DNA from: an uncultured Bacilli bacterium
GTDB lineage: Bacteria > Bacillota_I > Bacilli_A > RF39 > UBA660
Length of the DNA: 34,927 nucleotides
NCBI GenBank assembly: GCA_947629305.1
Contig: CANRDD010000006.1
Coordinates: 1 to 34,927 of the forward strand
Reading direction: 5' to 3'
Each line of letters opens with the position of its first letter. Within the stretch, counting starts at the first letter, position 1. The position numbers were made by a program, and so were the translations under genes. This document shows positions 3,118-5,693 of the stretch, piece by piece. The notes beneath the pieces were generated by a model, which saw only the letters and a list, made by a program, of their open reading frames with translations, ran no database searches and was not told the origin of the DNA.

Positions 3118-3474
3118 GGGGTAGTAAAGGTTTCGACATATGTTACTAGACAGGATGGCAAGTGGTCGGCATGACCTAAAAAGGCAAAATTAAAATTAAA
3201 TGACGAAACTAATTACAGTTTCGCTCCTGTTTACGCTTAACATTTAGCTTGGGAGCACTTCTAATTAATTTGCTTATAGGTTAATCTAGGGGTTCATAGA
3301 TATAAGATATAATATTAGTAATGTTCTTGGTGCTAATATTGAATACTTACAGGACTTACTTATTAAGAGGTTAGTGTAGAGCCATTTAATAAGAAAATAT
3401 AAATCTACCTAAACTTGTAGAAGTCAGGTTATAGGGCATATTGGACAGGGATTCGATTTCCCTCTACTCCACCA
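3118..3474 (+). ncRNA. ssrA: tmRNA (SsrA)
   Basis: A 357-nt transfer-messenger RNA that rescues stalled ribosomes with SmpB. The 5' end GGGGTAG pairs with CTACTCC before an encoded ACCA end. The T-arm-like GGGATTCGATTTCCC lies just before it, and the conserved 5' GTTTCGACAT follows the acceptor strand. The tag frame ends at TAA 3238-3240. The clearest part reads NDETNYSFAPVYA from 3199, preceded in frame by a possible Leu resume codon at 3196. NDE-NY resembles the start of the E. coli tag, but the end (PVYA) differs from the common ALAA ending. A helix of CTCC/GGAG type encloses the stop codon, as expected for tmRNA helix 5. Confidence 0.95.
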
Positions 3475-3525: not shown

Positions 3526-3554
3526 TTGACTAAGACTATATTATTTGTTATATT
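3526..3554 (+). promoter_or_regulatory. strong sigma-A promoter of an unidentified RNA
   Basis: TTGACT (3526-3531), 17-base spacer, TATATT (3549-3554). No open reading frame follows on this strand before a perfect terminator at 3653-3674, so it drives a noncoding transcript. Confidence 0.75.
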
Positions 3555-3560
3555 ATTGGT

Positions 3561-3674
3561 ACCGGAAGTACTAAGTACTTTGTCATGGTGGACAGATTTA
3601 TTCGTGGTCCGCGGACTATAGTAGTAATGGATTTTACACCACATAAACTGGGAAGTGGAGCAATCCACTTTTTT
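3561..3674 (+). ncRNA. unidentified structured small RNA, ~114 nt
   Basis: A free-standing transcription unit: a consensus promoter at 3526-3554, then ~114 nt without a coding frame, then an intrinsic terminator. Hairpins visible by eye include AAGTAC-TAA-GTACTT (3566-3580) and a longer-range GTGGT (3604-3608) with ACCAC (3638-3642). A GGAC/GTCC/GGAC triplet (3589-3592, 3607-3610, 3613-3616) offers two mutually exclusive pairings. It lacks the SRP RNA apical motif, the RNase P GAGGAAAGTCC core and an obvious 6S bubble, and no riboswitch class was recognised. It has its own promoter, lies just after ssrA, and points towards the 3' end of the convergent ABC exporter. Confidence 0.65.
3653..3674 (+). 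terminator. terminator of the unidentified RNA
   Basis: Perfect 7-bp stem AAGTGGA/TCCACTT with a GCAA tetraloop, followed by T residues. It ends three bases from the stop of the convergent permease gene. It has no T-run in the minus direction, so it would not terminate that gene. Confidence 0.9.
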
Positions 3675-3676
3675 AA

Positions 3677-4351
3677 TTATATTTCTTTTTTTAAAAATAT
3701 TTTTAAAGATATAAAGTAAGATATAACATATAATAAAATATTAATTATAAGACAAATAATAGGAATAAATTTAAGAATAGTATCTATTTTTATTAAATAA
3801 TATATATTAGGAAAAAGAATAAAAAGAACAAATAAAATAATAGCTAGAATAAAAACCATAACAACAGGAATAATGGTAGCTTGGATTCTTCCTTTTTCAA
3901 CACCCCATTTATAAATACAAGGCATATCTGTACAAATTAATAATGATGTACCTGTAAAAGCTAATAAACAAATATTAATATTATTAACAATATTACTAAG
4001 ATCACTTTTAAGATATAAAGCTATTATAAAACTAATCATAAAACCTATCATAAATGATAATAAATTATTAATTATCGCAAAAATATATTTAGCTTGAACT
4101 ATTTTTTTTCTTGTTAATGGTAAAGATAATAAATATTTATTACTATCTGCATTTTCATCATAAGAAAAAGTAGAAATACTATTTAAACCAAAAGATATTA
4201 AGAAAATAATAGTACCTGTTGTAATCATTTCTATTTTAAAAGAAGCAAAAAAAATAACTAAAATATCAATTATTAAAACAGAATAAATATTATTTTTATA
4301 ACTTTTAAATACATATAAATCTTTTAATATTAAACCTTTTATCATAATCAT
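3677..4351 (-). CDS. ABC-2 type transporter permease
   Basis: A 224-aa integral membrane protein with about six hydrophobic segments. It belongs to the ABC-2 permease class found in two-gene Gram-positive exporters (YtrB/PmtAB/bacitracin-type neighbours). The cytosolic loop DENADSNKYLLSLPLTRKKIV (residues ~62-82) is characteristic of these small permeases. It overlaps the upstream ATPase gene by four bases (ATGA), so the two form one exporter. Substrate unknown: lipid, antimicrobial peptide or toxin export are typical for the class. No terminator is visible in its own direction before the convergent small RNA. Confidence 0.85.
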   Translation of the reverse strand: MIMIKGLILKDLYVFKSYKNNIYSVLIIDILVIFFASFKIEMITTGTIIFLISFGLNSISTFSYDENADSNKYLLSLPLTRKKIVQAKYIFAIINNLLSFMIGFMISFIIALYLKSDLSNIVNNINICLLAFTGTSLLICTDMPCIYKWGVEKGRIQATIIPVVMVFILAIILFVLFILFPNIYYLIKIDTILKFIPIICLIINILLYVISYFISLKIFLKKEI

Positions 4352-5202
4352 TCTCCTTTAACTAGTAATAACATTATTTCTTCTAAACTAGGTTTTATTA
4401 TGGTAAAATTAGGATATTTATTATTAAATTTAGAAACATTATTTATTAATAATAAAGTTTTATTTTTATATTTTAATTTTTTAAAATAATAACTTGGATC
4501 AATTAGATCAATATTTTTTTGAGTATCTTTAATTAAACCATAATCTTTATCTAAAGTATCTTTAGAAATATCTAAAACAATTTGTCCTTCATCAATAAAG
4601 ACTAATTGATCCGCGATTAAATCTAAATCACTTGTTATATGGGTGGTAATTAAAATAGAATTTTCTTTATTACGGACAAAATTAGTAAATATATCCAATA
4701 TCTCATAACGGAAAATAGGATCTAAACTATTGGTTGGTTCATCTAAAATAAGTAACTTTGGTTCATGACAAATAGCACAAAGAACTTGAATCTTCCGTTT
4801 CATTCCCCCAGAAAATTCTTTTAAAGTCTTATTAAGAGGTATTTTAAATTTTTTTAAATAATCAAAATATAATTCTTCATTCCAATTATGATAAAAACAT
4901 TTCATTAATTTATTAATATCTTTAACATTTAGAATAGGAGAAAAAAAACTATCATCTAATAATACGCCAATTTGTTCTTTATCTAAAGAAGTTAATTTTT
5001 GATTATTTTTGCTAAATATTTTAATAGATCCTTGATCATAATTAATTAAATTTAAGATAGCTTTAATCGTCGTTGTTTTTCCACTTCCATTTTGGCCTAT
5101 AAAACCAACTATTTTTCCTTTAGAAACTTTAATATTAATATTTTTTAAAGTAAAATCAGCATATTTCTTTTCTAAATTTGTTATTTCTAAATTGTCTTTC
5201 AT
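4348..5202 (-). CDS. ABC transporter ATP-binding protein
   Basis: A 284-aa ATPase driving the adjacent permease. Walker A is GQNGSGKTT (residues ~36-44), the signature is EFSGGMKRKIQ, Walker B is LLILDEPTNSLDP, and the switch histidine is in ITTHI. The ~70-residue C-terminal extension after the nucleotide-binding domain is common in ABC-2 exporter ATPases. A promoter is visible on the minus strand (5221-5249). There is no GntR-type regulator next to it, unlike the Bacillus ytr operon. Confidence 0.93.
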   Translation of the reverse strand: MKDNLEITNLEKKYADFTLKNINIKVSKGKIVGFIGQNGSGKTTTIKAILNLINYDQGSIKIFSKNNQKLTSLDKEQIGVLLDDSFFSPILNVKDINKLMKCFYHNWNEELYFDYLKKFKIPLNKTLKEFSGGMKRKIQVLCAICHEPKLLILDEPTNSLDPIFRYEILDIFTNFVRNKENSILITTHITSDLDLIADQLVFIDEGQIVLDISKDTLDKDYGLIKDTQKNIDLIDPSYYFKKLKYKNKTLLLINNVSKFNNKYPNFTIIKPSLEEIMLLLVKGE

Positions 5203-5327: not shown

Positions 5328-5693
5328 ATGGAAGAATTAAATTTAAAAAAATGTGATATATGTGGTAATTTAGTTAAAGTAATAAATGATGGACAAGGAG
5401 AATTATTTTGCTGTGGTCAAAAATTAAGAAAAGTAATAGCTAATAGTGTTGATGCTAGTTTGGAAAAACATGTTCCAAGTTATAAAGTAAATGGGCAAAA
5501 TATAGAAGTAGAAGTAAATCATGTGATGGAAGATGATCACTATATTATGTGGATTCTTTTTAAAACAAATAAGCAAGAACAAATAATATATTTTAAACCA
5601 GGGGATATAGCTAAAGCTACTTTTCCTTACCAAAAAGGAATACTTTATGCTTATTGTAATAAACATTCTCTTTGGTCTTGTGAAGTAAAATAA
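5328..5693 (+). CDS. superoxide reductase (desulfoferrodoxin)
   Basis: A 121-aa class I superoxide reductase that reduces superoxide to hydrogen peroxide in anaerobes without releasing oxygen. The N-terminal desulforedoxin-like Fe(Cys)4 site is visible as CDIC (residues 9-12) and a CC pair (28-29). The catalytic Fe(His)4Cys site is formed by the His in EKHVP, two His in the NHVMEDDH segment, and YCNKH near the C-terminus. EKHVP also supplies the Glu-Lys pair used in catalysis. The start has AGGTGA seven bases upstream. An out-of-frame ATG four bases earlier (5324) is not used. It indicates a strict anaerobe exposed to oxygen stress. Confidence 0.95.
   Translation: MEELNLKKCDICGNLVKVINDGQGELFCCGQKLRKVIANSVDASLEKHVPSYKVNGQNIEVEVNHVMEDDHYIMWILFKTNKQEQIIYFKPGDIAKATFPYQKGILYAYCNKHSLWSCEVK

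Follow-up and report, generated by a model that had tools for sequence, protein, structure and literature searches.

A DUF3800-I-like small RNA predicted as an orphan copy in the genome of an uncultured Bacilli bacterium

To our knowledge, the RNAs found in association with DUF3800 genes form a known set of motifs without an established function. One of them, DUF3800-I, is listed in Rfam as RF02969 (PMC11701678), and DUF3800 proteins have been described as having an RNase H fold and as being linked to putative non-coding RNAs (PMC10910872). We have analyzed a 34,927-nt stretch of DNA from an uncultured Bacilli bacterium (RF39; UBA660; contig CANRDD010000006.1 of assembly GCA_947629305.1), referred to here as the window, in which a small RNA resembling DUF3800-I is predicted (Table 1). 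The window RNA has the DUF3800-I architecture, with P1, a three-way junction closed by P2 and holding P3 and P4, and a terminator of its own. It is similar to DUF3800-I in length, in the order of the elements (P1, the closing P2, P3, a UAA linker, P4, terminator) and in the core words TACCGG, GTC..GGT, TAAG and CTGGGA, and its relatives share with DUF3800-I the position of the DUF3800 gene. In contrast to DUF3800-I members, the window RNA scores below the Rfam gathering cut-off of 44.2 bits and lacks a DUF3800 neighbour. P2 contains an A.A mismatch, the linker is longer, P4 has a bulged A, and the terminator stem is nearly invariant within the subfamily. Other DUF3800 RNAs, such as DUF3800-VII (RF02967), are likewise small RNAs adjoining a DUF3800 gene, and DUF3800-VII occurs in one locus (L105) together with a relative of the window RNA. 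However, its sequence and fold are different, and neither the window segment nor its relatives match RF02967. A resemblance to type III toxin-antitoxin RNAs, meant as a likeness in working only, without any claim of membership, lies in the combination of a small structured RNA with one protein gene, in the patchy distribution and in the solo copies. Unlike those systems, the RNA described here has no tandem repeats, and the protein is RNase HII-like rather than ToxN-like.

Table 1. Positions in the window of the RNA, its elements and the adjoining genes
Feature	Position	Strand	Basis or remark
tmRNA (ssrA)	3118..3474	+	incidental neighbour
Promoter	3526..3554	+	-35 TTGACT 3526-3531, 17-nt spacer, -10 TATATT 3549-3554; consensus scan
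DUF3800-I-like small RNA, orphan copy	3559..3674	+	R2 (built without the window) 88 bits; R1 detects relatives
P1 hairpin	3560..3590	+	present in DUF3800-I consensus
P2, closing helix of the three-way junction	3593..3650	+	DUF3800-I consensus and covariation alignment
P3 hairpin, GUC-CGCG-GAC	3607..3616	+	all 3 pairs covary, 19 sequences
P4 hairpin, GU(A)GUAA...UUACAC	3621..3639	+	100% of cells paired, 19 sequences
Intrinsic terminator	3651..3674	+	GCAA loop, T run; nearly invariant within the subfamily
ABC-2 permease gene	3677..4351	-	PF13346, 101.6 bits; ORF; context
ABC transporter ATPase gene	4348..5202	-	PF00005, 93.5 bits; context

A sequence-only reading of this DNA had proposed a free-standing structured RNA bounded by a promoter and a GNRA-loop terminator, and these elements are indeed present. 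The promoter matches 10 of 12 consensus bases and a TG precedes its -10 hexamer. Promoter-like matches as a class are not in excess (21 against 19.6 expected from shuffles); TTGAC and the -10 region are kept in position in all but one of the seven relatives of the window RNA. The terminator has its stem at 3653-3659/3664-3670 and its T run at 3669-3674, and six terminator-like sites occur in the region, with 0.5 expected. The segment folds with -32.0 kcal/mol compared to a shuffled mean of -23.4 (z = -3.0), and none of 200 dinucleotide shuffles reached this stability. The ORF list contains no frame of at least 60 aa within the segment, and the small indels among the relatives have lengths not divisible by three, so that the segment is very unlikely to be coding, as had been stated before. 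The 5' end placed by homology (about 3559-3561) agrees with the 3561 given earlier. Thus, the window contains at 3559-3674 a predicted free-standing, self-terminated, structured non-coding RNA.

The exclusion of SRP RNA and of riboswitches was also borne out. The only RF00169 match of the genome lies elsewhere (C1:46411-46496), and Rfam families match the segment only below threshold, at chance level. At gathering score there was no match at all; those up to E <= 10 did not include DUF3800-I. Using blastn against 99 related genomes, we obtained just short chance-like matches, mostly to coding sequence, and the phage and plasmid collections returned just short pieces, many of them from the AT-rich tail. 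In the viral contigs the RNA pattern was not matched and the DUF3800 protein had no relative. We searched 386 genomes of the family with a covariance model, R1, for which the window RNA was the single input sequence. It identified one copy in G423 (92 bits) and two in G271 (77 and 66 bits), which align to the window RNA end to end, including promoter and terminator. Two further matches of R1, in G275 and G420 (24-26 bits), covered the terminator hairpin only and were discarded. A DNA pattern of conserved words, run on a collection of 84,980 species genomes, gave seven loci (L101-L107), three of which coincide with the R1 loci; all seven come from gut MAGs labelled Bacilli, Firmicutes or Clostridia. 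The window RNA is about 83% identical to these relatives.

It is through these relatives that the RNA can be connected to a described family. One of them, L107, reaches 51.2 bits for DUF3800-I, above the cut-off. The check by cmscan that had been proposed for a known family therefore has a divided outcome: the window itself gives no match, while its homologue passes the RF02969 cut-off. We built a second model (R2) from the seven relatives with a DUF3800-I-like structure, leaving the window out. With R2 the window RNA reaches 88 bits (E 1.5e-19), and 11 classical DUF3800-I RNAs, members above the Rfam cut-off, score 28-44 bits; over 190 kb, a set that contained DUF3800 genes of other clades at 12 loci, there was no further match up to E = 1. 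Because a model made without the window scores both the window RNA and the 11 members, common descent with DUF3800-I is indicated, and we are highly confident that the window RNA is a divergent relative of this family. The window RNA and its relatives are a divergent subfamily of a known kind of RNA that is mostly missed by Rfam. The RNA can hence no longer be called unidentified, and with homologues in other genera it is not specific to one lineage.

The helices of the RNA were compared over a joint alignment of 19 sequences. P1 consists of an outer helix UACC/GGUG (3560-3563 with 3587-3590) and an inner helix GAAGUAC/GUACUUU (3565-3571 with 3575-3581), which covaries with two-sided changes at five of six pairs. 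P2 has an outer part CAG.UU/AA.CUG (3593-3598 with 3645-3650) and an inner part GUG/CAC (3604-3606 with 3640-3642), in which the innermost pair has good support and the outer pairs are weakly supported. Over the whole alignment 93.5% of cells hold standard pairs, compared to 36-53% when the partners are slid. Two-sided changes occur at 23 of 36 pairs and none of 500 shuffles equalled the covariation score, a figure that leans high, as the model served to fit the alignment and a single split between the two subfamilies accounts for part of the change. The P3 variants of classical members (AUU/AAU, AAC/GUU, ACA/UGU) are independent of this split. The DUF3800-I architecture is backed by strong covariation in the joint alignment. 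When the window RNA is folded by itself, the structure of minimum energy joins the invariant GGTG to CACCA; we discarded it in favor of the comparative structure, where GGTG is part of P1. The sequence-only reading had also pointed to a GGAC/GTCC/GGAC set that might pair in two exclusive ways. The words are present, and GTCC with the second GGAC makes up P3, whose GUC:GAC pairs covary. In 78% of cells GTCC could instead pair with the first GGAC, but this alternative is lost in L120, L123 and L132, where P3 has changed independently and is still paired. Judged from the alignment, a conserved switch of this kind thus finds no support.

In most loci the RNA comes with a protein gene. Among the 24 other RNA loci, 19 have a convergent DUF3800 gene (PF12686) at the 3' end of the RNA, with gaps, measured from the aligned protein, of -41 to +71 bases. 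The gene lies on the 5' side of the RNA in two loci (L105 and L128), bringing the loci with an adjacent gene on either side to 21, and in the remaining three no DUF3800 gene was found in the flanks examined. In six relatives of the window RNA, DNA homology sets in shortly before the promoter and extends over around 890 bp, ending near the start of the DUF3800 gene, while the surroundings mostly differ (L102 and L107 share some further sequence), and hence RNA and gene behave as a cassette. The DUF3800 genes of L101 and L104 are frameshifted. The proteins beside window-type and classical RNAs form one group with an LDDSG motif, are 34-44% identical between the two sets and have the invariant residues D12, D13, E62, D145 and D205. 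In the predicted structure (pLDDT 90) the nearest solved folds are those of RNase HII (Foldseek E 1.4e-5, TM about 0.5), so the protein is predicted to have an RNase HII-like fold with conserved acidic residues, in agreement with the published remark on the RNase H fold (PMC10910872). In PADLOC just two DUF3800 proteins matched candidate families, and only weakly; NCBIfam gave no match.

The window contains no DUF3800 gene, and what it shares with the cassette of its relatives is just the RNA with promoter and terminator. The copy in the window is an orphan and lacks the protein half of the cassette. The place of the DUF3800 gene is occupied by a convergent ABC-2 permease gene, whose stop codon lies 2 nt past the terminator of the RNA; the homologous permease genes in two other genomes (G006 and G015) do not adjoin such an RNA. 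The sole PF12686 match of the genome is on contig C16 and belongs to another clade (27% identical to the protein of L106), and this gene is followed by a different RNA of its own. Since the assembly is about 94% complete, a partner elsewhere could have been missed. The proximity to tmRNA, to which the sequence-only reading had given weight, is incidental. Synteny behind the tmRNA gene is not kept in the genus, and the RNA was present at none of the tmRNA loci read in 24 other genomes of the genus, a few of whose contigs end early. In G010, the closest species by TsaD among those examined (87% identity), ssrA is directly followed by the gene found at 5328 in the window, which by eye encodes a desulfoferrodoxin. 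The RNA and the ABC transporter genes are missing there and were therefore either inserted in the window genome or lost in G010. On the other side of ssrA, at 2909-2990, a second promoter with the same hexamers (TTGACT-17-TATATT) is followed by a short CTCAGG/CCTGAG hairpin and a T-rich tail. It lies inside a tsaD-ssrA gap of about 250 bp, which in most relatives measures a few tens of bases, and by its sequence it could be another very small RNA.

How might such an RNA work? It would serve as a folded scaffold that is bound in trans by its DUF3800 partner, and binding would either activate or restrain the protein, making the RNA a cofactor or an antitoxin-like molecule. RNA and gene may travel together as a small selfish or defence cassette. 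The window copy would then have lost its protein gene or been transferred without one, and the solo RNA that persists could be of use to a DUF3800 protein that comes in from outside, or neutralise it. That the RNA acts as a DUF3800 partner and has been kept here without the gene falls slightly short of an even chance in our estimation, while we regard the whole explanation, identity and mechanism together, as evenly balanced. A wider idea is that bacteria keep solo DUF3800-I RNAs for a function, as a class of RNAs that act like antitoxins or decoys and protect them when DUF3800-RNA cassettes come in. DUF3800 and its RNA would in that case be a new kind of RNA-protein module for addiction or defence, its effector being RNase HII-like. 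We hold this to be quite unlikely.

The main rival sees in the window RNA a decaying remnant: the cassette would be dead, its DUF3800 gene having been deleted or never acquired, and the RNA half that is left may be transcribed but would no longer have a function. We consider this doubtful, yet it deserves serious weight: the partner gene is missing from the window, and the frameshifts in L101 and L104 demonstrate that cassettes do decay. Against it, the core helices and invariant core words are intact in the window, as are promoter and terminator, and at about 83% identity to the relatives P1 contains a compensatory pair (U-A for C-G). To judge from the sequence, these features argue mildly against a dead remnant. 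The rival that rests on the position of the RNA makes it an antisense regulator, which lies opposite the 3' end of a convergent gene and controls its mRNA. The ends do abut or overlap in most relatives, and the permease stop codon closely follows the terminator in the window. However, at most loci RNA and gene do no more than touch or share a few bases, covariation shows the fold to be conserved even though the convergent gene of the window is a different one, the DUF3800 gene is on the opposite side in L105 and L128, and other DUF3800 clades carry a structured RNA downstream on the same strand. We therefore see antisense control as very unlikely.

A structured RNA with its own promoter beside a nuclease-like gene could also suggest a programmable guide for the RNase-H-like DUF3800 protein, as in TnpB or IscB, and other DUF3800 proteins have been found with Cas12 systems (PMC10910872). 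But the RNA lacks a hypervariable single-stranded stretch, its variable positions being mostly in covarying helices or hairpin loops, and the protein fold resembles RNase HII and not the RuvC domain of TnpB; we give this possibility little credence. A lineage-specific switch or small RNA outside the known families, as initially read, would fit the lack of a credible Rfam match for the window itself and the existence of the GGAC/GTCC/GGAC words. It is hardly credible given the homology bridge to DUF3800-I through R1, L107 and R2, the breaks in the alternative pairing in three loci, and the fact that no gene lies directly downstream on the same strand to be controlled. The window and its relatives define the cassette as an RNA and one RNase HII-like gene, and an RNA without its protein allows the protein alone to be compared with the protein plus RNA, which would distinguish a cofactor from an inhibitor or another role.

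Further DUF3800-associated RNAs were seen along the way. In the same genome as the window, on contig C16 (L119, 2164-2315), a promoter and a conserved RNA that looks structured (CGGCATATAAGCC...CTGCCG) directly follow the DUF3800 gene of another clade, an arrangement that recurs in L118, L113 and L116. This RNA has no credible Rfam match and is possibly an undescribed DUF3800-associated RNA. A DUF3800 clade with a YVYLDESGSIHKNS motif (L109, L110, L112, L114, L117, L134-L142) has a shorter RNA downstream on the same strand, AAGACCTGAGGTAGGTAGC...AAGTACG, and nearly all of these RNAs fall below the DUF3800-I cut-off. One genome of about 1.3 Mb (G207) has three DUF3800-I RNAs on contigs C5, C9 and C62 (L153, L151 and L124), one without a DUF3800 gene in the flanks examined and two with a convergent one. 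In the L105 locus (229-2367) several such elements seem to have piled up: a DUF3800 gene of another clade is followed by an opposite-strand DUF3800-VII RNA, by a short duplicate of that gene's 3' end and then by the window-type RNA.
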